Assembly: GCA_900169235.1 (NCBI GenBank)
Contig: FWCC01000112.1
Span: forward strand, 115,257-179,256
Reading direction: 5' to 3'
DNA: 64,000 nt
Source: Zarea fungicola
Taxonomy: Eukaryota > Ascomycota > Sordariomycetes > Hypocreales > Cordycipitaceae
Below the pieces are notes generated by a model. It ran no database searches. It saw only the letters and a program-made list of their open reading frames with translations, and had not been told where the DNA came from. Position numbers and translations under genes: made by a program. Every line of letters begins with the position of its first letter. Position 1 is the stretch's first letter. Positions 22,462 through 59,080 of this stretch are shown piece after piece.

Positions 22462-24323
22462 TGGAAGCCCGGGATGAGGCAAATCTCGGAGCATGGGCAA
22501 CGCACGCAGGTGGCGGGGATTGTCCGTCTCGTCTCGTCTCGAGGGGCGGTCGCGCGCGTGCAACGGGGAGCGCAAAGCTAAGCCGCGGAAGGGATGAGCG
22601 TGTGCAGAATTTGGGTACAAGGCTCTAGAGCTTCCATAGCGAGCAGGAGCAGACGCAGAGCAGCAGCGCCCTACAACGGTAGGTCCTCTCAGCTTTGATG
22701 GGAGATGCGATGTTTGCTCGTCATGCCAAGAGTCTGTAGCGAGGCAAGGGGCCCTTGGATGACCCACAGGGGACTTTGGCGGCTGTTGCCAGATTCGGAT
22801 AGTGGGGGAAGCCAGGTTAGCGGTGGTTACAGCGGGCTATAGCGCTACCTGGCACCTGGGTAGGTACTAAGTTTAGCGCCATGTCGCCCATCTGCCTGCA
22901 ATGTCTGCCAACTACCAGCTGGTAAAGCCTGTCGAGTCTGCAGTGGGGACGCAAGGTACCTTCTATGCCCAGTGGTGTCACCTACTCAGTGCAGGTAGTT
23001 TTCGTCGACGTGCAAGACCCATGGTACTCTATAGTCGTCACAACCACCATCCCATCAACATCACCTTCATAAACGAAATGTACCAAGTATTTTCGTGCAA
23101 GTATACTGCATTCATCTACACTACTAATCTCAACAAACGGTCGAAAGCGCCCTGTCTCCCAAAATCATTGCCTTCTATGATGGGGGATGCAATGGCGACG
23201 CAGCAAGCCCGAGCCTGACAATACCAGAGAAAAGGATTATAAACTTCATTTTGGCAGTAAAAAAAAAGCAGTCAGGATATTTTAAATAAAATTAAATACC
23301 GAATTGTCAGAATGGTAGTTCTCCAAGGGTTGTACAGCGGGCTTGGCCGTCTAAATACTCTTCCACAGCGCATAAGAAAAATAGTTTCCTAGACAGTCTC
23401 AAGTATGGCTCAGCTTGTGCTACATCTCGGAATATAACAGGGCTGATCCTAATCGCCGTCTGCACGATCAGGGCGACATATTGGACAATCATGATCTGGA
23501 ATCTCTGAGTGGAAAAAGCAATCTTTCAAGGCAACGTGGTGTTGTCCCTTGTTGAGTCTACTGGAAGAGGTAAATTTCACAAAGTAGCGCTCTTCGCTTT
23601 CGTCTAATTACAAAAATGGTTCAATTCTCAAGACATGTCTTTAAATCTTGATGCTAGCCCTCTACTAGACGCGCTGTCCCCGTCATGTCCACCGTCCCCC
23701 TCAAGGCGCGGCCGCTTTGTCAAGCCCTCCATCAAGTGGTAACTCCTCCATCACACGTCCCAGCATCAAGCACTGATTTGTCAAAAAATTTCCCATCAAG
23801 CCAGCACCTCATCACAGTCACTTACGCCTTTAGCAGCACTTGCACCTCCTTGTCCAGTTTTATCGTGCTTTCACTTAGCGATATCCGCCTCTACCTTTCC
23901 AGAGCCTATCAAAAGGCTACTGTTTCTTGTTGAACAACGGCAGTCGGTATTTACAAAAAGTCAAGACGGCCAAGAAACTCAAAAACTCGAGCAAATAAAC
24001 AAGAGGCAAGATACAGGGCGACCAACCGAATGGATCAGCTATTACTGCACCACTTTCAACTATAGACTAGACGAGACTACTGCTCTGTGGCTGCCCAATC
24101 GTAGCCGATGTGGTGCTTATTCGTCTTGACACTATTTGCACTATTTGCACTATTTGCGGCTGATAGACAGCCCCGCGCCACCACTGTTGTCTGTGCACAG
24201 AAATGAATTGCTTCATGTACCAAGTAGCTACCACCTCCGACGTGGACTAATCCTTCACAACTTTGTTATTTCACCCTCAATGTAGAAGCACCTTTGGTCC
24301 CAACCGCTGGCAGGCGTGACATC
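22462..24323. other. Intergenic region, about 1.9 kb
   Basis: Divergent promoter region between the type II membrane protein gene and the 1207-residue gene. It contains a (CGTCT)n run near 22523-22540 and a 9-bp triplicate at 24130-24156. Small open frames (22901-23218 and 23685-23933 plus) lack support. Confidence 0.45.
24130..24156 (+). repeat. Three tandem copies of a 9-bp unit (CACTATTTG)
   Basis: CACTATTTG occurs three times head to tail, about 170 bp upstream of the ATG at 24324. It could be a slippage product or a small regulatory array. Confidence 0.7.
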
Positions 24324-27300
24324 ATGCCTCCTATGCCCCCCATCGCGACGGACCCAGTGACGAGCGCCGGCTCAATATTGGGAATCGTTTTGTCGGGTGT
24401 TCAGCTTGGTACGCAGCTACAGACTTACATGGAACTGGCACAAGAAGCAGAGGAAGAGCTACATGACATTGTCTTTGACATTAATGCCACTTCCGCCGCC
24501 CTTAAGCAGCTTCACGCAATCATCGACAATGACAGGAATGCCCAGGACCCTTCCACCAATATCTTCAAGGATGATGGTGTCCGTGAGATTGAGATGCTCG
24601 CGCTCAAGTGTGACGCCATTTACAAGAACATCATTACGCTGATCCAGCGAGCGAGCCACTCAGAAAGTGGCAGCAAAGGTGGTGGCCAGAGCAGCGCACC
24701 AGCAGCGAGCGCCATGGCACTCGATCCATCGACACTTAAACCGCTTAACTTTATTCGAAAACTGCGGTGGCCTTGGCTGAGACCTAGAATCCTGCGCTGC
24801 CATGAGCAGCTTAACTGGCTCAAAGTAAGCCTGCTGTTCACACTGCAAATGGCCAATATCGCACAATGGCAAATGAGGTACGTGAACAGCCACGGCTCCG
24901 TGTCTCTACTCTCCACTGACATGCAAATGAATGCCGATAGCAATCGCCAAGTTGGCATCTCTGAAGAGGTCAAGTTCAATCAAAAAATGGCAGAGAGGTT
25001 ACAGGAACGCCGCAAGGAAATGCTCCACGACATGAAAGACACCGAAAAGGAAGAACAGCAGCGTGCTGACGCCGCGAAGCCTCATCTCATTCTCCATGGC
25101 GACAGCGCTCCGCCTCTCCCTGCTTATGATGTCGAACCAACCAAAGCAAGGAAGAGACCTATTAGTATCACAATGGATGATTCGAATATGGATACCGACG
25201 AATTGGCTGACATGGACTCCTTGGCACATGTTGACTCAGAGACAACTAATCTTAGGCGATCTTTTTCATCACGTCCTGGGGGCACTGTGGTTAGCGACAA
25301 TACCAACCCGACTTCAGTAATGGCTAGCAGTGCCACTGTGCACTCAAACAAAGAAGCTGGAGCGGCCCCGTTCATGATGCTTTCGTCGATTCCACCACCA
25401 GCAGCCCCCCCGACACCCCGTGGAGGAGCCGCCGCTTCCCACACTGCCCTCCGCTCGAAGAAGAAGTCATCTGCAGAACCAGCGGCGTCGGTCCCAGCCC
25501 CAACTCGTGTAACAGATACTTCACGCAACAAGCCGGCAGTAGTTCCCCAGAAGCTACCAGACCGGTTCGGCCACTGGGCGGATAATGTATTTGGGCGGCA
25601 GAGGAAGTACCGCAATGACGAGCAGAGTGCCACCCTCGAGGCCTACATTGCCGAGAACGACGGGCGCGATGCACCCATCAAAATTCCGTTTGGCCACAAC
25701 CGTCTCGCCTATGGGCTGGACAAGGTCCTGAAAGACTGGCACGGGGATCCGTGGACGAATTATCTAGCTCTGAGCCCTGCGAAGCGTCTTGACATTGATG
25801 CCATTACCGAAGCAGCGAGGAAATCGAGCAACCACGAAAAGTCATGTCTTGCTTTTAAGGAATACTGCACAAAGAGCGGCACAAGACCATTTCTGCTGGT
25901 CTTCTTTGCACTCTCCGAGGCAAAGGACCCGATCATCCTCCATCTCGAGGGGCGGCGATATCGCCTCCCCTTTGCCGCCTGCAAGACGCTGCAGGACGTC
26001 GAGCGACGAATCCATGAAGTCTGCCATAGCTCGCCGGCGCATCTCTCATTGCTGCCACTCGTCGCAGAGAAGCGATACGAGCTCTCGGATGAGCGCAGGA
26101 ATATTATACTGCCCTCGTTTCTGATGGAGTCCATCAAGCCTGGCATCGAGCTCAGCCTCTCCCCGCAGCCGCATGTCCCGCACAGCCTCTTGATGTTATC
26201 GGCCGACGACAGGTCCGCGGAGAGCGCGCCGCTGGACATGCACGAAAAGTCTGACTGGAGGAGAGGAGGTGGCTTTTGGAGCGAGAGGTCGGCGGACCGG
26301 GTTACGCAGTCGTATGTCCCAGAGCGTGTTGCGGCGGCTCCGGCCAAGGAGAGCGCAGCACCGTCAAGATTCGAGAATTCTGACTTGCAAGGGTCATTAA
26401 AGAAGAAAAAGAGAAGGACAATTTTCGACAAGATAAAACGAACCATGCAGTCAGGAGCCGCCCCGCTGTCGTCGGAGGCTCCTTCTGACGTGTCCAAGCT
26501 GGTATTGCGTAATGCGCAGAGCAAGCCATCTGTGACCGTATTGACGACCAAGGAAATCAATTACCTCTCCCATCGATGGAAGGAAGAGGAAATCTGGGCC
26601 ACCTGGCGCTACATGTTTGTTCAAAGAGGTGAGCTCGATAACAGCAGCCGCCTTAAGAATGCATTGTGGCGCGCATGGGCCAAGGCACAGCAGAGCCTCA
26701 GGGCCACGACGCCAGTGTCTTTTGCTTGGTATGTACATGGATTTTGCAACACGGAGACGAAAAATACTAACATGGTGCAGGGTCAAGCATTTTGATGGAA
26801 CATGGTTGTACGGGCCTATGCTGGAATCGTTTGATGACAAGCTATTGATTTCCAAGACGGCGAGCCTGCAGCAATACAAGACGAGGAGAAGGGCGCACAG
26901 CATAGACTTGGGGGTGCTTCCACAGCGCATCAAGAAGACTGCCACAAGTACTCGGCCTCCACAGCCAACTGGAAATAAACCAGAAAGAGAAACCTCCAGA
27001 GTGCCGGTACCCAGTGGCAGCACGGGCTGGGAGCCGGCAAAGATGGTCCCAACTTCGAGTGTATTTAACGAGGCAGTTCTCTCTAAACAATCCGGTCCAT
27101 ATCAAAGGAGCGATCAAGACCCCGTGCGTGAGGCACAAGGCCATACCGAGGAAACCGAGCTTCTTCTCTATGGCGACAGCCTCTCAGGCGCCAGCATTTA
27201 CTCCGAGGGTGCAGATGACCCCCCGCGCCACATTCCCGAGAGCCGTGCCGTGTATGATCGTGATTGCTCTGAAGAAGGCTCGATCCACCGGGTGAGCCGC

Positions 27301-38678: not shown

Positions 38679-41600
38679 ATGCCGCCAGTAAAGTTCAACA
38701 GTGATCTGGGCGAGGCACAGAAGACCAGCATACGTGGAGTGTCTGATGTTCGGCGAGGACATGATCCAGGGACCATCTTGTTTACATATCAACACGCTCA
38801 ACTCGACGATTCCGCCGCCATTCAGATGATTGCTCATGGTGCGCATCCCCTGTCCCCTTCCGATCTCGCTTCAACCCTGCATCAGCCAGGCCATTCTATT
38901 ATTGCTGACACTTCATATAGATGAGGATGCATACCCCAAAAACGTAGAGTTTCTCATCATTGCCGACGTTGACCCTACCGGCGGTGAGCTCGCATCCTGG
39001 CTCGATGGCGTCTCTACGAAAAGAAAGTGGTCCAACATCACAGAGGCCATTCAAGCCATTTCCGCCGTCCTTGCAGCCGGCATCGAGAAAAGGGACTCGA
39101 GTAGCTCCCAAAACGAAGACGAAGAAGGACTATCATGGGACGAACAAAGTGAATTTGACGGACTAGACGCCATGGACATCTCCAGTCCCACCGCCGCTGA
39201 TCAGCCAGAATTGAACGAAGTGAACAGCGACCTTTCTTGTCGCTGGGATGGCCAAACCCTGGCCGAACTGAGGATTTCGCTGAAAAAGGCACAGGCATCA
39301 GGAATGACAGTCGGCATTTACCCGCTTCGTGGAACCAGTCTGCCGCAAGTCATCTCACTCTCCGCTCCCGTGGCCTCTCTTGGCTTAACGGCTGGTGTTT
39401 TAGAGGCATGGGGTCTTAAGGAGTCCGATAATTTGGTTTTGCTTATTCGCATGAGCTACCTTCCATCCTTGTCCGAGTTTCTAAAGCTATCTAGCCGGCA
39501 AAAGACCTTGGCCTTTCGATTCGGAAAATGCCGTGGCGAGAAGCCGTCTTTGGCCTCGGTGCAGTCTGCCTATGGAGATCTTGGGATATCATTCGACGAC
39601 AATGGCACCGGCCCTTCTGATACAGAGTTGCCCTTTGAGCTCATCCACATGTCCAACTCCCTTGATAGACTGCTGAATAGCAACTTTATGAAGCTGCTCC
39701 TGTTTCGGAGAGAGAAGCATCTGTCCTGGGAAATGGCGCAGTGCTTCCTTTCCCAGCTTGAAGTCACACCAGCCGGCGATCCCGTACAAGCCGAAATTGC
39801 TTTTGATACTTCTGCTGCTCAAGTCAATCGGATGCCTCTCCAGACTCTTCAACCGCCCTTCTCACGAGATAATGCCCTCGAAAGCCCAGAGGAGTTCAGC
39901 CTTCCCCTCGTCGCCATGCAGCTGGTATTGCACAGAGTCGCAAACTGTACTAGATATTGCATGGTCTGTAATGCACGCCTCTTTCACAATGTACAGGCCC
40001 TGAAGCCATACATCTGCGACAACTCGCTATGCCTGTTTCAGTACCTGTCTCTTGGTCTCGGTTCCAGCATCGAACATGAGATAATCAACGCCCCATATGT
40101 GGTTGACATGCTCGTCTCCTTTCTCTACACGGCCTTGGCAAGCTCGACTGTGCGAGAACTTCCAGATGGACTTCAAATCAAGACGGCCTATATTGATGAG
40201 GAATCGGCTAACCAGGGGTATGCCACTGCCACTGCAGATATGGTGGCCATGACATTGACGGATCTCGACTTTCCAATCGCGCCAGGCGATGCACCTCTCA
40301 AGCAGAAGCTGCGAGAAGGTGACCGTGTCATCATCTTACACCGAGAGCCTCGCAAGTTCCCTTTAACCAGCCCCTATGTGGTAAAGTCTTGGTGTCGGCT
40401 CATTTCATGCATAGGTCGAGAGTGGAAATTTGAACGCTTCCACCACGTCGAAGAGCTGAGCAACAGGGTGCCCTCTGACGGCGGCTCACCACCCGAGGAA
40501 TCCCTTTCTGGGCAGCTCGGCAAAGGCTTGTACAACGTACGAGTGTATGGTTATTGGCAGAACATTGACGAGCTTGACCTTGAGAAGCGCCGATCTGCAT
40601 TGCTCACGATTCTGGACGGGTTGCCTTCGATACTAGAAATGCGCCAGTATCTGATGCTCCAGCCCGGACGCCGCTTGGCAACCTGGGGTCGTATGAATGC
40701 GTCCGAGCTGTCTGTCCTGAACTGGACTGTTGCTTCTAATAGGTCGATGATTATACAAGACGATGCAGTTCCGCCTGGAGAGCTGCAAGAAGACTACATC
40801 CCGCCCTGGACAAAGGTTGCCTTTTCCCACGCCGGATCCGACCAGTGGATGCAGTTTCGATTCGTGCAAGGCTCACCAGTGAGTGAGCAAGCATTCGAAA
40901 AAGCAGTTGCCGAATTGGAACGGACAACGAACACCCCGACCTTATTCGCGTGGCACGGAAGTCGGCAGAAGAACTGGCATAGCATTGTTCGAACAGGGTT
41001 GGACTTTTCAACCATGGAAAATGGCCGCGCATGTGGCAACGGCGTCTACTTCAGCAGCGATATGAACACAAGTCTTGGTTATTGTGGTGGCGTGGGTAGG
41101 CTTCCTCCCGGAGCACCAGTCAGAGCTGTGAGTGAACGACATCCCTTGTGCAGCCAGGCCGATTTTGGCATTCATCGTGACATGAGCTAATCAGCCGAGA
41201 TATAGGTTACGACCTGGGCCAAGTCTCAGCTACAAATATCATCCGCCATTGCCATTTGCGAGCTTATCAACCGCCCAGACGATTACATCTCCAACAAGCC
41301 CCATTTTGTGGTGGATGTACTTGACTGGATCCAATGCCGATACTTGCTCATCAATATCAATTCGACAAAGGAAGCGAGGCAGTTCCCGTTTCATAGGCCA
41401 CTAACCAGCCAGACACCGGGTTACGTCCCACAGGACGACAAGTATCCTCTTCTTGCCGGTGCGTCAAAGGAGAGGGTTCATATTCCGATCACTGCTTTAC
41501 CCCATTCTCGACGGCTGGCACAGCAATCAGCGCCACAGGATAATGCCGAGCTCTCTGCTGGACTTCCGATACTCTCAACTGAAGAACAAAGCAGCGGTAT

Positions 41601-42510
41601 ACCTCGACCTCAAGGCATGATGGATGCCGACGCTTCATCGCAGCAGGATCTGTCGATCCCGGAACAACAGCAAGAACGATTGACGTATGCCGCCGACGAT
41701 GTAGAGTTTTACCTTGGAGCCCATGTCGGAGATGACGCGGGCTCGTACTCTACAGGAATGAAGCGGCTGAATTCGTCCACCTCGGATTCGTCGTTTGTGT
41801 CACAGCACTCGCACAAACGAGCTAGAACAATGTCTGACGCGTCTGTGGCAGCTAGAGCACCGATATCCGAGGAGCCTCAGAGCAATGGCTCTGTGTTTGA
41901 CCCAAGGCGATTGCAGATGGACTCGTTGCGCATTCTAACGTCGCCTTCCTGGGCCGGCACATCCACGCGGGCCGCTCGGCGCCTGATGCTCGACATGACG
42001 GCGCTCACCAAGAAGCAGGAGACTGACCTATCCTCTGGCTACTATCTCCAAACGGAGAACCTGGGCAGCAACATATTCCAGTGGGTGGTGGAGCTGTTTG
42101 ATTTTGACAGCTCCCTGCCACTGGCCGGAGACATGGCCCGGTTCGGCTGTCCCAGCATCGTCCTAGAGCTCCGTTTCGGTCCCAACTACCCCATGTCGCC
42201 ACCGTTTGTCCGCGTCATTCGGCCCCAGCTTGTGCCCAATGCGCGGGGCGGCGGTGGGCACGTCACGGAGGGCGGCGCCGTGTGCCTCGAGCTGTTGACC
42301 GACTCGGGCTGGAACCCGGCCATCAACATTGACAATGTGCTCTGCCAGATTCGGGCAACGATTGGCGAGCCAGATCCGCCGGCGCGCATTGAAGCGCGCC
42401 GCGTGGGCACGGACTATGGCCTGGGCGAGTCGGTGAATGCCTTTCGAAGGCTGGCCGAGAGGCATAACTGGGCTGTGCCTGCGGACTTTGGACAGTTGGC
42501 TTCTTGGTGA
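38679..42510 (+). CDS. PARP-type ADP-ribosyltransferase fused to a UBE2Q-like E2 domain
   Basis: Three exons, 38679-38838, 38921-41127 and 41206-42510, give 1223 residues. A PARP catalytic domain covers about 700-835: AWHGSRQKNWHSIVRTGL (H732 of the H-Y-E triad), GNGVYFS with Y763, and NKPHFVVD where the third triad position reads H822 in place of the polymerase glutamate. The H-Y-H set suggests mono- rather than poly-ADP-ribosylation (inference from PARP6/8/16-type enzymes). The last 200 residues form a ubiquitin-conjugating fold with LELRFGPNYPMSPPFVRV and the cysteine C1149 in GGAVCLELLTDSGW, closest to UBE2Q-type E2s, which lack the HPN motif. PARP-UBC fusions are known in fungi. The linker (about 870-1010) carries a possible KHKR-type nuclear signal (HSHKRAR). 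Confidence 0.88.
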
Positions 42511-45427: not shown

Positions 45428-46674
45428 CGTGATGGAGTAGCCAAAAGACTTTGATGTTGGTTGGGGTATAAAAAAAAAGAATTAGAAAAAGAAATTAGAA
45501 AAAATAGTGTGGGATTGAATGGTCTGTTGGAATGGTTGTTGATTTGACTCTATTGACTTCCTGTCAAGTGGCAAGATTCGCTTGGGAATTCTCCAAGCCG
45601 AGCCCCGGCCATGAGCTTCTACTTATACCTCACCTCTCTCCCTTGCCTCTTTTGTTCCGAGGCGCTGTTTTTCGGCCAGAGACTTCCGGCCTCCTTCTAC
45701 GACTTGCGATGGCATGTTTCATTATGCCTTGGTGGAATGCTCTGCCGTGTGTGATTCAGGCAACATGACCAAAGTGCGGCCTTGTCTTGGACCGTGCTTG
45801 ACGAATCGCATCGACATTTTCTCAGCCTTTCACTATAAACAGCCCCAGAAGAGCATTTCACAACGCTATGCGCGGCTGCACTCAAACATTTTCATAAGTC
45901 AGCTTCTTCGCTATAGCTTGTAGCGACTTGTAAAGGCTTCCAATGGCCAAAGACATCGTCTCGTAGCTACAAACCAACATTTCGCACACAACGTCGTCGT
46001 ATTTATATACCTAGTTGGCTTAGTATGAGCCTCCTGTGCAAATTATTCCCATTGGAATACGAGAAACTCACCATCTCAACGCGACACCTAGTTTTGAGAC
46101 TGGGCACGTTATGCAGTAACAGCCTTCAAGACACACAGAGCAGAAACGATGTGCGGACACAGAAATGTCAAGCAGAGTAACAGATGAGTTGAGTCGATTC
46201 TATACGGTTATTCTTTAGATTTTCCACCAATAATTTTCTTTCTAGGCTGATGCGCTGTAGGATATGTTTTCCGTACCTGTAGATGCACCCGCTACATACA
46301 TTATGTAGTGCTCACAACCGCGGCTCTCACCGTCGTGACCACGATACTCTCCAGCAGAAAAGAACACTAGCAAAGGTAGTTTTCTTGGCGCCTTGATAAT
46401 AACTCATATAATATAGGTCACCCGTTGCAGTGAGCACGTATTGTGGTGGGGAGGGCACAGGGACATATAGGCAACAGCCTGAAGGATTCAAAATTCACGG
46501 TCATGTTCCCGCCTTGAGGCCACCACTGCGACAAGCAATCGTCACCAATTTCTCTATAAAAGACGTCACTTTGTTCATCATGAAGATTTATCAGTCAATT
46601 TTATAATACAAGTCGATAAACTACTTTTACAGTATATGTATATATATTCCCAATCCTCGTCTGCAAATCTCACC
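45428..46674. promoter_or_regulatory. Divergent upstream region of the Gly-rich preproprotein and histone-fold genes
   Basis: Small frames only (for example 45532-45768 plus). On the histone-fold side a clear CTATAAAAGA lies at about 46553-46562, some 115 bp before the ATG, indicating a regulated promoter. Confidence 0.45.
46553..46562 (+). promoter_or_regulatory. TATA box of the histone-fold gene
   Basis: CTATAAAAGA, about 115 bp before the chosen ATG. Confidence 0.5.
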
Positions 46675-48171
46675 ATGACTGAACAACCAACACCAACGCC
46701 TCATTCCACCTTTACCGTGTCATCGGGATGCCTCTGCTACGGAGACCTGCACAATATGTACCACGGCATGACCGTGCCGACGCAGCCCTTTCCCAGCGCC
46801 GTAGAGCGGCACCCGGGCGGCACGGTCAAGGCCCAGATTCTGCAGTACAACACGGCCGCCCTGAACGGGACCTGGCGCGCCTACGAGCTCGTCAACACGT
46901 CGTCCGAGAAGTGCACTGCCTGGTTCGTGTGCCACGACAGCGTGGACCCGGTGCCGGAGGTGGACAAGATCCTCCGGGTGTCGGGCTCGCCGTACGAAAA
47001 CGACCGCGGGAGCCAGTGGCACTGCGACGAGACGGTGCGAGAGGGCGTGCTGCCCATCAACCGCTACGACTGGGGCTACTACGACAGGCGCTGCGAGGAC
47101 AAGGTCCCTGTTCTGGCGGGCGGCGACGATTTTGTCGGCGTCTACATGAGCCTGGGGCTCGTCGACCATTCGCACGCTGAGGAGTATATCCGTCTGTGGC
47201 AAGGCCTGCCGGATCGGCAGCGAGAGTCGCAACCCCACGGCCTGTGGATGGGCGTGCCGGAAGAGTACATGTTTGGCCGCTTCGGCTTCACCGACGACCA
47301 CGAGGCGGCGCGGTCGTTTCTGTGGTTCACGGGCGACACAAACTTTGCGTTTACGGCGTTTGCGGGCATGGAGACGACGAAAACGCTGCGCGTGTTTGAG
47401 ACCGAGGAGGACTGGATGAGCAGAATTCTGCGCGAGGGCCGCGACATGCAAGGCCTAGAGCTGCTTCAGCCCGCGGCGCTCGAGCAGCAGTTTTTTCGGC
47501 GCATCGAGGCTCCTCCCGAGAGCGAGCTGCGCGGTCCGTACCCCGCCGCAGAGTACATTATGGATGCGCAGGACGCGCACCACATGGTGGCGGCCACGAC
47601 GACGCATGTGCAGCTTAGTGCCTATTGGAGGGGCGCGTGTCTGGAGGTTCTCAACGAGGCGATGATGAGCTTCCTCGACGTACTTGCGACGGTGACCTCG
47701 ATTGGTGGGCCCGGCGCTGATGAGACTGGCGTCGTCGTCGTCGGAATAGAGTCTGTCGCCGCGTGGCTTTTTCCCGAGCATGGCAACGAGAACACAGTCG
47801 ACGGGTGGATGCATGAAAAGATGGTGCGTCCCAAACCGACAGCCATGACGAGTAGAGTGGCCTTTGCGGACAGGATTACCGCCTTCCTCAAGTCGAGAGC
47901 CGGCAGCAGCGACAATCGCAGCCTCGTCGGCATGTTGAGGGTCGTGGGCTTCGCCGAGGGCTTGGCGGCGGCCATGGAGTATCTGTGCTTTGAAATACTG
48001 GAATTGGCTGGCAACTGCGCGGGGGATAACTACCGCAAAGGTGCCATTGTGCCACAGGACATTCGAAGGACCATTCTAAACGACGCAGGACTGATGGCCA
48101 AGGTTGGGTGCTCGAGGGTATTTTGGAAGGGCGGCTCGCAGGGGTGGGTTGATGCCAGCCAGGAGGTTTGA
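46675..48171 (+). CDS. Protein with unknown N-terminal domain and C-terminal H2B-H2A-like histone-fold doublet
   Basis: Intronless, 498 residues. I chose the ATG at 46675 in ACCATGA context; an in-frame ATG at 46636 would add 13 residues. Residues 1 to about 295 form a domain I do not recognise, rich in W, Y, C and acidic residues. Residues about 392-478 closely follow histone H2A: AFADRITAFLK for the first helix region, then LAAAMEYLCFEILELAGNCAGDN against the H2A LAAVLEYLxAEILELAGNAARDN, then IVPQDIRRTILNDAGL against IIPRHLQLAIRNDEEL. Residues about 305-375 look H2B-like (LNEAMMSFLDVLA, then IESVAAWLFPE against REIQTAVRLILPGEL), a weaker match. The basic histone tails are absent. So the protein may carry its own H2A-H2B-like dimer. 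The role is unknown. Confidence 0.72.
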   Translation: MTEQPTPTPHSTFTVSSGCLCYGDLHNMYHGMTVPTQPFPSAVERHPGGTVKAQILQYNTAALNGTWRAYELVNTSSEKCTAWFVCHDSVDPVPEVDKILRVSGSPYENDRGSQWHCDETVREGVLPINRYDWGYYDRRCEDKVPVLAGGDDFVGVYMSLGLVDHSHAEEYIRLWQGLPDRQRESQPHGLWMGVPEEYMFGRFGFTDDHEAARSFLWFTGDTNFAFTAFAGMETTKTLRVFETEEDWMSRILREGRDMQGLELLQPAALEQQFFRRIEAPPESELRGPYPAAEYIMDAQDAHHMVAATTTHVQLSAYWRGACLEVLNEAMMSFLDVLATVTSIGGPGADETGVVVVGIESVAAWLFPEHGNENTVDGWMHEKMVRPKPTAMTSRVAFADRITAFLKSRAGSSDNRSLVGMLRVVGFAEGLAAAMEYLCFEILELAGNCAGDNYRKGAIVPQDIRRTILNDAGLMAKVGCSRVFWKGGSQGWVDASQEV

Positions 48172-48964: not shown

Positions 48965-50354
48965 CTAGTCGTGCTGGAACAAGACGCTGATGGACTCGCC
49001 GTGGTGGACACGACGGATGGCCTCTGCGAAAACGGCGCTAATGTCAATAACTTCAAGCTTGGGGCAGGCGCGGCAGTGTTCCGTCTGCGGTACCGAGTTG
49101 GTGACGAGAATCTTGTCAATGGCGGAGGCATTGATACGGGCAATGGCATCGCCGCTAAAGACACCGTGGGTCAGCAGGGCGTACACCCGGACGGCACCCT
49201 CACGCTTGAGGAGCTTGGCAGCACGGGTAATGGTGTTGGCCGTGTCACCAAGATCGTCGACGAGGATGCAGATGCGGTTGGCAACGTCACCAACAAGCAT
49301 CATGCTGGCGTTGCGCTGCTCGGTAAACTTGATGGGACGGCGTTCCTGTAAAAGGCTGTGAGTTTTGAATCGCAAAGCAAGCGACAATTCATGTTACCTT
49401 GTGGATGAGAGCAAAGTCCATGTTGAGACTGTCGGCAATGGCAGTGGCACGCTTGGCACCACCGGCATCCGGGGACACGACCACGGCCTCCTTATAGCCG
49501 GGGATGTGCTGGCGGATGTAGTTTTGCAGCAGGGGCTTCCCGTAGAGGTTGTCGACGGGAATGTCAAAGAAGCCCTGGTATTGGGGGTCGTGGAGATCCA
49601 TGGTGATGATGTGATCGGCGCCGGCGCAGGTGAGGAGGTCGGCGACAAGAGTGCCGGCCTGGGCGACCCACTGCTTGTAGCCGGGCTTGGCGTGAAAGGC
49701 GTTGGCGACGCCGGGCTTCTCGTAGTCGTGGGTGGTGAAGCTGCGCTGGGAGGAGACGGAGCCCTCGGCGGTGTGGTGGCCGCGGGCGTGGGAGGTGAGG
49801 CTGGCGCCGCTGTCGGTGCGCTTGGTCGGGGAGAAGTAGTCGGCGGGGTTCTCTGGCCGGTCTTGCGAGACGCTGCTCTTGGCAAGCTTCTCCGCGAGGC
49901 CGTTGACGCCATTGCCGAGACCACTGCTCCTGGGGCCGCCGGGTCGGGGTGTGGCGGGGACGCTCTCAAAGGTGTAGTCGTGTCTCTGGCCGTTGCCGTT
50001 GGAACCAGCCTCGGCAGACCGTGAGAGGGGGGCGCCGGCCTTGTTGTAGGGCCAGTCGGGCTGGCGAGAGTAGGGGAAGAGGGGGACGACGGCGGTGACA
50101 CGCTTGGCGGAGCCGGTTTTGCATGCCGAGATCATGATGCAGAGGTCAATGAGGTTGTCATTGACATTGCCGGAGCCGGACTGGACAATGTAGACATCTT
50201 TGCCGCGGACCGAGTCCTGGATCTCGCAACGGCTTTCACCGCCTGAGAATTTGCTGAGGATGCGGTTGCCAGGGGGGATGCAGAGGATGTTGCCGATGCT
50301 GTCGGTGAGTTCGGGGTGGGAGTTGCCGCCAAGGAGGACAATGTTGCGGACCAT
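48965..50354 (-). CDS. Ribose-phosphate pyrophosphokinase (PRPP synthetase) with large insertion
   Basis: Two exons, 50354-49398 and 49345-48965 (52-nt intron), give 445 residues. It catalyses ribose 5-phosphate plus ATP to PRPP plus AMP, feeding purine, pyrimidine, histidine, tryptophan and NAD synthesis in the cytosol. The core is standard: [49 protein letters not shown], and the PRPP loop [13 protein letters not shown] in exon 2. About 120 residues of Ser/Pro/Gly-rich sequence (about 102-225) interrupt the core between the FPYSRQ and PGYKQW segments. A comparable insertion is known in yeast Prs1-type subunits, so this is probably that paralogue. It diverges from the RPC9 gene. Confidence 0.93.
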
Positions 50355-54483: not shown

Positions 54484-56337
54484 CTATTCCTTCGCAGCTC
54501 TCGGTGCAAAAATATCCAGCAACATATCCCGCCCATTGCGACGCTCCAACGTCGGGTACAACAGCCCCGTGCTGTGGCCCACGGCCGCATCCCACGACTC
54601 TTCATCCCCCGCTAGCCGCAGGCGCACTTTGCCGTCCTCCTGCCCGCGCACCGCCGTCATCGCCGCCGCGAGCGCATCCAGGCTGTACTCCTCCCCGTTC
54701 ACATGCGTGATCTTCTGCGTCGGCGCCAGTCCGGCCTTGTCCGCCCTGCTGAACCGGCGCACGTCCGCCAGCGTGCCGTCCTCGGCGACACGCACCCCCA
54801 GCGACAGCCACACGGCGTGTCGTCTCTGCGCCGCGGGCACGGGCGATACAACCTCTGGCTCCCCCGCGTAGCCAAACCTGTACCCGGCGCGCTCGAACCC
54901 GGCCGTATTGACCTGCGCCTGCGGCGTCTGCACGCGCTCCCGGAAGAAGCCCGCCCAGTCATACACCAGCGTCTTTGTAAGTGTCGACACCACCTCGTCC
55001 AGTGTATACGGGACCACGAGCGGGTGCGTGGCCCCCCTCGTATCAAAGAAGCACCGCGCGAAATCATCCAGCGACTTGGCGCCGCCGGTGCGCTCCCTGA
55101 TTAATGTATCCGCGTCGAGCCACAGCAGCACGCCCTCGTCGTAGTAGTCCGTGTCCCGGAGGTAGCTGTTCCATGGGGTGTCCCTCGCCGTCGCGGACGC
55201 CTTGAGGGCCATGCCCGTGGCCGTGTCCTCGGTGGAGCGCCACGCCCGGCCGCACTGGTGCTGCATGTCCGCCGCGGCCACGGCGAGCCTGTCCCTGACG
55301 GTCGGATACGCCATGAGGCCGGCCCGCGCGGCCAGGACGTACCCGTAGTAGTGCGTGAGGCCCTCGTACACCCACAGCAGCGTGCCGTCCAGAGGGCTGG
55401 AAAAGTCTGCGGGGACGTGGCCCGCCGGACGCCGGAACTTGCCGTTCCACACGTGCACAAACTCGTGGCTGAAGACGGCGCTGATCCAGTCAAACAGGGC
55501 ATCGTCGGCGAGGGCCCGGCTGGTGGTGAAGATTGTGGTGGATTCCGCGTGCTCGAGACCGCCCGCGACGAGGCGCTGCTCGCCGGAGAGAAAAATGTCA
55601 GACGAGAGGGACATGAACTTGTACTGATGGTACGGGCCGGGTCCGAAGATGAGTGTGGCTTCGGAAATGAGCCGCGCGAGCTTGTCGAGACGGTCCTGCG
55701 GAATCATCCTCGTGAGCTCTGGCTCGCTAAAGGCGACGCAGAGCTGGTGCCTGCCGTCAGCGGTGATGTTCAGCTGGCTTAGATGCTGCCCAATCAGCAC
55801 GGGCGAGTCCTCCAGCCTCTCGGCGGACACGGCGGCAAACGCAATGGTTCTGTGCTGCGCTCCATTAGTAGCGGTGCTGTGTTCATCCGTCTCTGTGCGC
55901 AGGGTGGCGGCGTAGTCCCAGTCTCCGGGGATGCGAATCGTAGCTTGGATGGGCACCCGGGCCACGGGAGCATGGGCCGGGTGCATCATAAACTCCTCCC
56001 ACCTCACCATGGCCATGCGCCGCGTCAGAAGCGACTTCATGACGGCGTCAAAGCTGGCGCGCACAGTCGTCACGCCGCTCGGGATGTCCACGTGGTAGAT
56101 GTGACGCTCGGTAACGTCACGGCGCCACTTGAGCGTCGTGCTCTGCCGGCCATTGTTGGCTGTGAAATAGAGTCCTGCGATGCGAGCGACGGGTCCGCTG
56201 GGCATGTGCGTGCCGCATTGCCAGAGCGGCGTGGTGAAGCTGGCCGTGGTGTTGGGCCGTACGGGCAGTTCGACCTCGACGTGCCCGAGACGGCGCGGGG
56301 CGTCAATCAAGTCGACACGGAGCTGGATGTATCGCAT
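54484..56337 (-). CDS. M61-family metallopeptidase (glycyl aminopeptidase-like) with C-terminal PDZ domain
   Basis: Intronless, 617 residues, close to bacterial M61 enzymes in length. The N-terminal 200 residues form the family's beta-rich domain. The zinc site is HEFVHVWN at 291-298 (HEYFHTWN in relatives) with the third ligand in YEGLTHYY, E325. A PDZ-like domain occupies about 505-575 (LGVRV...ADKAGL...ITHVNGEEYSLDALAAAM). M61 enzymes remove N-terminal residues, often glycine or alanine; cellular location is unclear as no signal peptide is seen. The family is mainly bacterial, and lack of introns plus very GC-rich codon use compared with neighbours suggest possible transfer from bacteria, though fungal homologues may be widespread. 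Confidence 0.88.
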   Translation of the reverse strand: MRYIQLRVDLIDAPRRLGHVEVELPVRPNTTASFTTPLWQCGTHMPSGPVARIAGLYFTANNGRQSTTLKWRRDVTERHIYHVDIPSGVTTVRASFDAVMKSLLTRRMAMVRWEEFMMHPAHAPVARVPIQATIRIPGDWDYAATLRTETDEHSTATNGAQHRTIAFAAVSAERLEDSPVLIGQHLSQLNITADGRHQLCVAFSEPELTRMIPQDRLDKLARLISEATLIFGPGPYHQYKFMSLSSDIFLSGEQRLVAGGLEHAESTTIFTTSRALADDALFDWISAVFSHEFVHVWNGKFRRPAGHVPADFSSPLDGTLLWVYEGLTHYYGYVLAARAGLMAYPTVRDRLAVAAADMQHQCGRAWRSTEDTATGMALKASATARDTPWNSYLRDTDYYDEGVLLWLDADTLIRERTGGAKSLDDFARCFFDTRGATHPLVVPYTLDEVVSTLTKTLVYDWAGFFRERVQTPQAQVNTAGFERAGYRFGYAGEPEVVSPVPAAQRRHAVWLSLGVRVAEDGTLADVRRFSRADKAGLAPTQKITHVNGEEYSLDALAAAMTAVRGQEDGKVRLRLAGDEESWDAAVGHSTGLLYPTLERRNGRDMLLDIFAPRAAKE

Positions 56338-57092: not shown

Positions 57093-59080
57093 TTATAGCA
57101 CGACATGCGGGAAAGATGCTTCCGAGCTCGTCGTGTCAAACCAGCTCAACGTATAATCCTGCCTCTCCTCCCTCAACGCCCACACTTTCCTCGCCACATC
57201 CGCCACGACTCCAAACGCCGGCAGACGCGTGTCTTGTTCCATACGTCGCAGCCAAGCAGCGAGGCACTCGCGAAGCGGCGTCTTGATAGCCTCACACGCT
57301 GCCACAAAGGCTGGCCACAGCATCGCCGCCGCCTCCTGCTGGCCCGTCACCTGGGTCAGGGGGGCAAGCACTTTGCGCACCACATCCTGCAGCATCAGGC
57401 CATTGATGTTCTGCACCCGCCTGTAGTAGAATAAAATGATGGCCTGGTGAAATGCCTCTTCCAGATTAGACCCCGTGCCGTCACCGCCCGCTGCCGACGG
57501 CGTCCACGATAGAATATTGTGTTCCAGGACTTTTGTCCGCCGCACAATGTTCGCAATCATGCCCGAGTCAATATGCGTATCCCTGTGCATCAGCTCCTGC
57601 TCATTCACCAGCCGAATCGTCTGCGACAAGAGCCCCAGGAGCGTCTCTGGCAACCCATGCAGCCGCGGAAACAGCGAGCCTTCATACAGCCCCATGACCT
57701 CCAGGTGCACGTCCTCCTCCGCCAGGGCCCCGTCCTTGACGGCGTACATGCGCAGGTCTGCCTCGGTGCTGTGGTCAGCAACGCGGAAGCTGCGCAGCCT
57801 CGGCGCGGAGTCGGGCGTGACGAGGCGGGCGCGGGCGGCCGGTCGCGCGGGGCAAATGTTGCGCAGGATGCAGCCGCAGGTGCTCTCGGTCAGGATGCGA
57901 AGGTGGGTGTAGACGTGGTGGAGGGCGCGGACCTGGAGGGATTTGCGCGGCTTGAGGAGGCCGCGCGTGCGTATGAGGTATTCGCTCTCCAGGAGGAGGT
58001 ATTCTGCCTCGTCGTACTTGGCAGAATGTATCTAGAGATGGCAGCCCGCATTAGCTGACTTGCTACACTCCAACTTGTGGCTCAAAGAAGACGGAAAAAA
58101 ATGTATAAACTTGATTGGACCTACCTCGAGCATAGTCATGGATAGCAGCGCCATGAGTAATTTCTTATATTTTGTGGGAACAACGGGGACGAGCTCGTCT
58201 TGGATGGCCTGTTCAAGATGCTGTCGCGATGTCTCCTTATATTGTGTACCCAGTTCAGCCCAGTTTACTGATTCCGATGCATTTCCATGGCGAGAACGAT
58301 GGAGGCAGCTGGCCGCAAGGACCGAGTAGAACAGTGACATGTCTGTGGATGTGGATGTGCCATGGAGGAGTAACTGCGCGTACGTCCGCTCCGCGACTGG
58401 GAAGTGGATATTCTCCCAGGGACAAATGGCCTTGTCCGGCTTCATCGAGTATGAGAAAGCGACGCCGTGATTTTTAAAGTAACGAAGCAGCTCGGGCGCT
58501 GTTTCAGGGACGTTGGAGCTGAGAAGCTGCGGTAGGTGAACTGGTGGTGAAGGCGGTTGTCGTGACGGCGCCGCGTCGTAGGGAGTGACAATTTGTGATC
58601 CAACTGGCGACAACGACAACGACGACTGGGGGCTGGCTTCTGGCGTCGGAAATAGCACGCCAAATGGTCCGTGGAACCGATGATCTAGCTGCCCAGATTT
58701 TGACATGCCACGAGGGCTCGATTCCTCCGTCTCCAGGTCCCCCAGCGCTTTGGTCATGGTCATTCGACCCAGACTCGTCACTGTTGATGCAGCCATTTCG
58801 CTCTGCTGTTCTTCTAAAGCCTACGTTAGCCAGAGTGTATTTTAAAGGATTACAGGGGGTATTTACCCGAAAACAATCGATGCCGAAAGCGGCCATCGTC
58901 GCCATCTTCTGACGTCTGGGTCGTTGACGGATCTTCGTCCCGCCACTGCAGGCGTGACTGGTACCCTGTACAGCGGACGCCGAGCGATGTGCACATACGG
59001 CACTCTGGGCGCGCTTCGTCACATTTGACGTGTCGTGATCGGCATGTCCCGCAGCCCGTGAATGTTCTACTACGTTTCAT
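57093..59080 (-). CDS. Zn2Cys6 transcription factor, 3 exons
   Basis: Exons 59080-58867, 58813-58125 and 58031-57093 give 613 residues. The N-terminal binuclear cluster is complete: C10, C13, C20, C27, C30, C37 (CX2CX6CX6CX2CX6C), preceded by a basic MKRSRTF. A Ser/Pro-rich linker follows, then a fungal transcription-factor-type helical domain from about 190 (TYAQLLLHGTSTSTDMSLFYSVLAASCLHRSR) to the end, of the arginine-metabolism regulator (ArgR/ARG81) or Fungal_trans_2 kind. It should bind CGG half-sites in the nucleus. The target genes are unknown; the nearest downstream neighbours are the M61 peptidase and, upstream, the SDR gene. The first intron joins at G|AA (EEQQSE), the only in-frame solution. 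Confidence 0.9.

Follow-up and report, generated by a model that had tools for sequence, protein, structure and literature searches.

The window analyzed here is a stretch of 64,000 nucleotides from the Zarea fungicola contig FWCC01000112.1. At 46675..48171 on the forward strand it encodes P0001, a protein of 498 amino acids (aa) plus stop, in which an N-terminal domain, a linker and a short entry motif precede a predicted H2B-like and then an H2A-like histone fold (the doublet). The coding sequence is a single open frame. It lies in an open reading frame (ORF) listed from the raw DNA at 46636..48171 (+), which is continuous, has no internal stop and does not need an intron, and the Met at 46675 agrees with the start sites of the nearest relatives, such as the Beauveria protein. 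A putative TATA-like box read from the letters, TATAAAA at 46555..46561 (+), is found 5' of this ATG. Both the lack of introns and the upstream TATA box had been reported in a preliminary description made from the sequence alone, and both hold. The gene is single copy in its own 43.1 Mb genome, the sole further match in a genome search at E<=10 being the histone H2A gene on a different contig. A RasGAP search of the same genome served as a control and confirmed that such searches perform as intended.

A search of 5.8 billion proteins yielded 108 proteins, a profile search also yielded 108 and an alignment led by the N-terminal domain yielded 216. The 143 family proteins analyzed here are therefore only part of the family. 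All three modules (N-terminal domain, H2B-like half and H2A-like half) are present in 135 of the 143. The eight proteins in which a module is absent seem to be incomplete gene models; P0094 and P0097 have sequence in common with P0085, a fuller A. oryzae model, but different ends. Named members come from six classes of the Pezizomycotina: the Sordariomycetes, Leotiomycetes, Eurotiomycetes, Orbiliomycetes, Lecanoromycetes and Dothideomycetes. Class assignment was verified in the taxonomy for one species per class, and the remaining members presumably belong to the classes that their genus names indicate. Ten Fusarium proteins of 615-730 aa (P0054, P0064, P0071, P0078, P0079, P0082, P0124, P0134, P0136 and P0143) make up all but one of the 11 family proteins longer than 560 aa. 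The three inspected at full length (P0064, P0078 and P0082) end in an NAD(P)-binding-like part, which is probably a neighboring gene fused by annotation. Among viral contigs from IMG/VR, tblastn confirmed none of 76 and 41 pattern-matching stretches as relatives of the family or its N-terminal domain, and among bacterial and archaeal genomes none of 30 as relatives of the N-terminal domain. NCBIfam gave no match in the four members tested.

The tree comprises 58 named proteins of the 143, and the charge and identity comparisons likewise cover 58 of the 143. P0001 groups with Lecanicillium and Beauveria, and next with Metarhizium. The Sordariomycetes are scattered over several separate clades (7 changes, at least 4 of them forced by well-supported branches), suggesting that old duplications with losses, or transfers between fungi, shaped the family. 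Some isolates have two family members (P0019 and P0139 in Leptodophora, P0083 and P0105 in Cercophora). Mean pairwise identity is 53% for the N-terminal domain and 32% and 38% for the doublet halves. Putative fused animal histones seemed mis-annotated when they were investigated (available text of PMC9145170), and a mis-fused gene model or a chance resemblance could be suspected here as well. Against such an artefact, the frame is uninterrupted in the raw DNA, the same architecture recurs in those 135 proteins over six classes and the H2A gene is on another contig. The ORF and the family refute it, and we give it next to no weight. The observation is real, and the proteins apparently represent a real, unusual fungal family not described so far; no description of a fungal family of this kind was found among the listed titles and abstract openings of open-licence papers.

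The second half of the doublet, residues 389-486 (47839..48132, +), is H2A-like in both sequence and predicted fold and includes a docking-strand-like end. Its helices in the AlphaFold2 (AF2) model are alpha1 (394-409), alpha2 (426-451) and alpha3 (460-469, 471-477), and a YSRVFWxG-type motif (479-486) closes the half. As a single sequence, P0001 matched H2A in the PDB at E 1.2e-6 across residues 425-473 (phmmer). The 58-sequence family profile reached H2A in the PDB at E 2.1e-9 over profile positions 395-465, about residues 400-477, and single-chain H2B-H2A constructs at about 1e-8 for the best of them. With E-values scaled to a database size of 177635 sequences, the half-profile for H2A matched the organism's own H2A at 6.7e-10, its own H3 at 0.52 and the best of 2000 shuffled histones at 23, and hhalign of the H2A half against H2A gave 98.2%. 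On this sequence evidence the H2A homology of the second half is confirmed, and the H2A-like fold that the preliminary description had placed at about residues 392-478 is borne out by both searches and by the AF2 helices. Pfam found no domain in P0001 at E<=10, and its Histone model had 8 matches over the genome, none at this gene. At E<=1 the same model matched 17 of the 58 members, led by P0037 (3.8e-5, 24.4 bits), which is under the cut-off of 26.4; PF00125 is listed for P0037 in the protein database's precomputed domains.

Identity to the organism's own H2A over the alpha2-alpha3 stretch (window 47950-48096) is 21-24 of 46 in five rows from Cordycipitaceae and Metarhizium, 22 of 46 in P0008 and 10-19 of 46 in the other 52 of the 58 rows. 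The closer likeness of the Cordycipitaceae and Metarhizium rows could be either retention or re-approach. Residue counts here and below use 127 of the 143 proteins; the eight module-deficient proteins were dropped, along with a further eight that have a cut H2A half or an irregular C-terminus (P0071, P0078, P0079, P0082, P0104, P0134, P0136 and P0143). In the closing motif, W484 is conserved in 121, G486 in 116 and S480 in 113 of the 127.

The first half, residues 291-385 (47545..47829, +), is assigned as H2B-like solely from its predicted fold. Helices are predicted at 298-306 (alpha1), 319-344 (alpha2), 358-365 (alpha3) and 375-384 (alphaC). The predicted local distance difference test (pLDDT) scores of the AF2 model, taken in blocks, are 90-98 for residues 291-390 except in the loop 341-360 (61 and 73). 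Residues 347-357 (window 47713-47745) are an 11-residue insertion in the loop preceding alpha3, with low pLDDT and gapped in at least 51 of the 58 rows. The preliminary description had recognized MMSFLDVLA and IESVAAWLFPE as H2B-like, and these do fall in alpha2 and at alpha3 of the model, while the span is about 291-385 and not the 305-375 proposed. In structure alignment, the AF2 model aligns to H2A-H2B fusions across residues 292-486.

Sequence methods gave no such signal for this half. The H2B half-profile matched the organism's own H2B at E 800, poorer than the best shuffle (170), and hhalign against H2B gave 0.5%. When the whole-doublet profile was compared with a fused target of the organism's own H2B and H2A, the match was confined to the H2A part. 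An hhalign value of 54.6% for the H2B half against the H2A half was rejected as an artefact, the cut alignments having seven residues in common. The missing H2B signal would be expected if only the H2A-like domain were real and the H2B-like part were an unrelated helical bundle paired with it by AF2. Several features of the model argue otherwise, including the high pLDDT outside the loop, the correct order of elements, the alphaC-type helix and the alignment over both halves. A lone histone fold would moreover leave its dimer face exposed. Among the best 60 matches, six of nine single-chain H2B-H2A constructs were matched from profile positions 347-350, which by position mapping would fall where the first half ends; the other three were matched only from 389-413. 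We consider a single real histone domain very unlikely. The predicted structure supports an H2B-like histone fold for the first half and, by prediction, P0001 has a double histone fold (DHF), that is, two folds in one chain forming an intramolecular pseudodimer. Of the checks proposed in the preliminary description, the profile search gave a significant match on the H2A side and none on the H2B side, and the structure prediction with superposition returned histone folds.

As had been proposed, the doublet lacks basic tails. Its net charge is -5 in P0001, with a median of -5.5 and never above 0 in the 58 members, and the organism's own H2A and H2B cores carry +6 each. For DNA contacts we assumed a set of DNA-facing H2A residues and an H2A numbering map, the map resting also on alignment and R42 falling outside the scoring. 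The equivalents of H2A R32, R35 and K36 are basic in only 10, 8 and 9 of the 127 proteins, that of R77 in 50 and that of R88 in 14. Identity as a core, nucleosomal histone was ruled out by the charge, the lost residues and the missing tails, and the Pfam Histone cut-off was not reached. The doublet might still wrap or bend DNA in the manner of giant-virus histones. With a net charge of zero or below in all 58 members, tails absent and the R32, R35 and K36 positions lost, we find this improbable, and the DNA-binding module offered in the preliminary description as one possible role is disfavored.

The N-terminal alpha/beta domain, residues 1-240 (46675..47394, +), is the best conserved module. 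It has no significant fold match in the PDB, the GntR/HutC ligand domain being among the known folds considered, in keeping with the unrecognized domain that had been noted ahead of the doublet. The structure search placed Mad2 (HORMA) chains no better than E 1.7 and named no VOC protein among the best 50 of 189 matches, a result that excludes no fold, and hhalign gave 0.3% for an internal duplication. The helical linker that follows, residues 241-285 (47395..47529, +), has helices at 244-253 and 261-275 in the AF2 model. Block pLDDT over residues 261-280 is 84 and 81 in the full-length model versus 75 and 64 in a model of the N-terminal domain only, a drop that the cut end alone may cause. 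A lone beta-bridge mark at residue 37 appears only in the full model, alongside lone marks at 286 and 480. The doublet is entered through an LGPY-type motif, RGPY in P0001 (residues 286-289; 47530..47541, +), of which G287 is conserved in 121, P288 in 122 and Y289 in 102 of the 127 proteins and L286 in 41 of 58.

Canonical acidic-patch residues were taken from the available text of PMC10878826. By alignment, E440, E443 and D470 of P0001 (47992..48084, +) are the equivalents of H2A E61, E64 and D90, and acidic residues are found at these positions in 115, 116 and 108 of the 127 proteins. At the other patch equivalents the counts are 93 (D72), 82 (E92), 29 (E91) and 8 (E56). Of the 182 doublet columns, those of the E61 and E64 equivalents are within the 22 most conserved. 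Further near-invariant positions are N327, L334, F404, P460, R464, W484, G486 and the G287-P288 pair; R464 occupies the H2A Q84 position and D462 that of H82.

Computation on the family establishes a constant architecture, no net positive charge and the loss of several DNA-facing residues. We consider it moderately likely that this Pezizomycotina family joins its N-terminal domain to an H2B-H2A-type pseudodimer serving as a non-nucleosomal docking or regulatory surface in an SOS-like mode. The SOS pseudodimer is autoinhibitory, docking in cis, and lipids release it (PMC3762125), and the SOS folds do not retain electrostatics suited to binding nucleic acids and have roles in autoinhibition and protein-protein contacts (PMC13088155; available parts of both). 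We prefer a docking or regulatory pseudodimer because of this precedent, the likeness being one of mode of action with no kinship claimed. In the mechanism proposed, all functional steps of which are inferred, the C-terminal H2B-like and H2A-like folds would pair on themselves into an H2A-H2B-type pseudodimer that neither wraps DNA nor enters nucleosomes. It would pack against the N-terminal domain and act as a docking or regulatory surface. The acidic patch (E61, E64 and D90 equivalents) could hold a basic segment belonging to a partner or to the same chain, and binding or release of this segment may alter the activity of the N-terminal domain. The docking-strand-like end (479-486) and the LGPY entry motif might perhaps help clamp the doublet to that domain. 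Two kept DNA-facing positions weigh slightly against this explanation and for the DNA-binding one, as the R29 equivalent is basic in 120 and the K75 equivalent in 83 of the 127 proteins.

The main rival to a docking pseudodimer is a mimic on the chromatin side. A soluble nuclear H2A-H2B look-alike would occupy acidic-patch readers or H2A-H2B chaperones, with the N-terminal domain sensing a signal and setting the timing. Consistent with this, the E61 and E64 equivalents are strongly conserved while the doublet halves diverge more than the N-terminal domain, and the alpha2-alpha3 stretch comes close to H2A in the Cordycipitaceae and Metarhizium rows (the 21-24 of 46 given above). The kept acidic-patch residues would also fit the chromatin decoy or chaperone-like factor suggested earlier. 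However, a simple nuclear-localization pattern is found in 11 of the 58 members and not in P0001, basic tails are missing and the H2B-side patch residues E105 and E113 are not placeable. We regard a nuclear mimic of this kind as possible but rather unlikely. A more specific version is a one-chain soluble mimic of the H2A-H2B acidic-patch face, joined to a sensor domain with a fold unseen in the PDB, that titrates or gates arginine-anchor chromatin factors. This seems to us less likely still. On that reading, the DNA-facing side was abandoned and the patch side kept in six classes.

No functional tie of the gene to any neighbor was apparent among the domain-annotated ORFs of the window, and Rfam had zero matches within it. 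On the reverse strand, ORFs encode a ribose-phosphate pyrophosphokinase N-terminal domain (49389-50354) and an M61 peptidase (54484-56337), and two have a fungal transcription factor domain (57093-58796). On the forward strand, two adjoining ORFs at 38830-42510 contain a stretch matching the PARP catalytic domain (E 9.2e-11) and one of ubiquitin-conjugating type (E 4.7e-11) and are possibly one spliced gene for a fusion of PARP with a ubiquitin-conjugating enzyme (PARP-UBC). A ubiquitin-like ULD_2 domain (E 2.5e-11) is encoded by an ORF at 24294-26795 (+), which also gave a short AreA GATA-like match (E 1.7e-4).

According to a review of viral histones from 2022, eukaryotic histones included no confirmed fused doublets (PMC9145170), and a 2026 review now includes animal ones (PMC13088155; available parts of both). 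The family would be a further eukaryotic doublet; six fungal classes share it, and in this genome a single exon encodes it without interruption. What it has lost and what it has kept raise the question whether the H2A-H2B face can be a protein-docking module outside the nucleosome. The family also adds a conserved domain, about 240 residues long, for which no fold match was found.

In its available parts, the 2026 review lists in Table 1 the M. kandleri and Halobacteria doublets, SOS, ABTB2, SPT3, bacterial DHF and animal HSIH-DHF, and in Table 2 viral DHF (PMC13088155). None of the Table 1 entries shares the architecture of our family, SPT3 is the only fungal entry there and no fungal family of this kind was found in those parts of the review. 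The preliminary description is supported in proposing one tail-less chain with an H2B-like and then an H2A-like fold behind an N-terminal domain. Its parallel with giant viruses alone does not stand, since SOS, ABTB2, SPT3 and animal HSIH-DHF are eukaryotic precedents (same source).

SOS (PDB 1q9c/3ksy) is recorded for animals and Capsaspora (PMC13088155, in part), while our family is fungal and is set apart by domain content, lacking DH, PH, REM and Cdc25 domains (Pfam, 58 members, E<=1) and having its doublet at the C-terminus. Binding of PIP2 or phosphatidic acid is a further property of the SOS histone domain. ABTB2/Cca3 is likewise a multidomain eukaryotic protein with a double histone fold, but it carries ankyrin repeats and a BTB domain, which were not found in the family, and it is an animal protein in the same review text. 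Membership of SOS, ABTB2 and SPT3 was ruled out by domain content (Pfam, P0001 and the 58 members). For SPT3, of SAGA, the structure alignment Z was below that of H2A-H2B pairs. The TFIID-18kDa Pfam model, which we take to be that of SPT3, matched one of the 58 members at E 0.29.

The giant-virus H2B-H2A doublets of Marseilleviridae and clandestinovirus have a similar fold; those of Marseillevirus form nucleosomes (PMC13088155, in part), whereas our family has neither net positive charge nor tails. One viral protein has its doublet after 200 residues without known homology (available text of PMC9145170), a parallel in architecture by description only. Animal HSIH-DHF are likewise eukaryotic single-chain H2B-H2A-type pseudodimers, but they are reported to be single-domain proteins at least 60% identical to nucleosomal histones (PMC13088155, in part), and our family is divergent and has an N-terminal domain. 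Canonical H2A is homologous to the H2A-like half, from which it differs in its tails, its partner half, its DNA-facing residues and the absence of a fused N-terminal domain. Compared with these systems, the family looks like a variant of the double histone fold suited more to docking proteins than to packing DNA.
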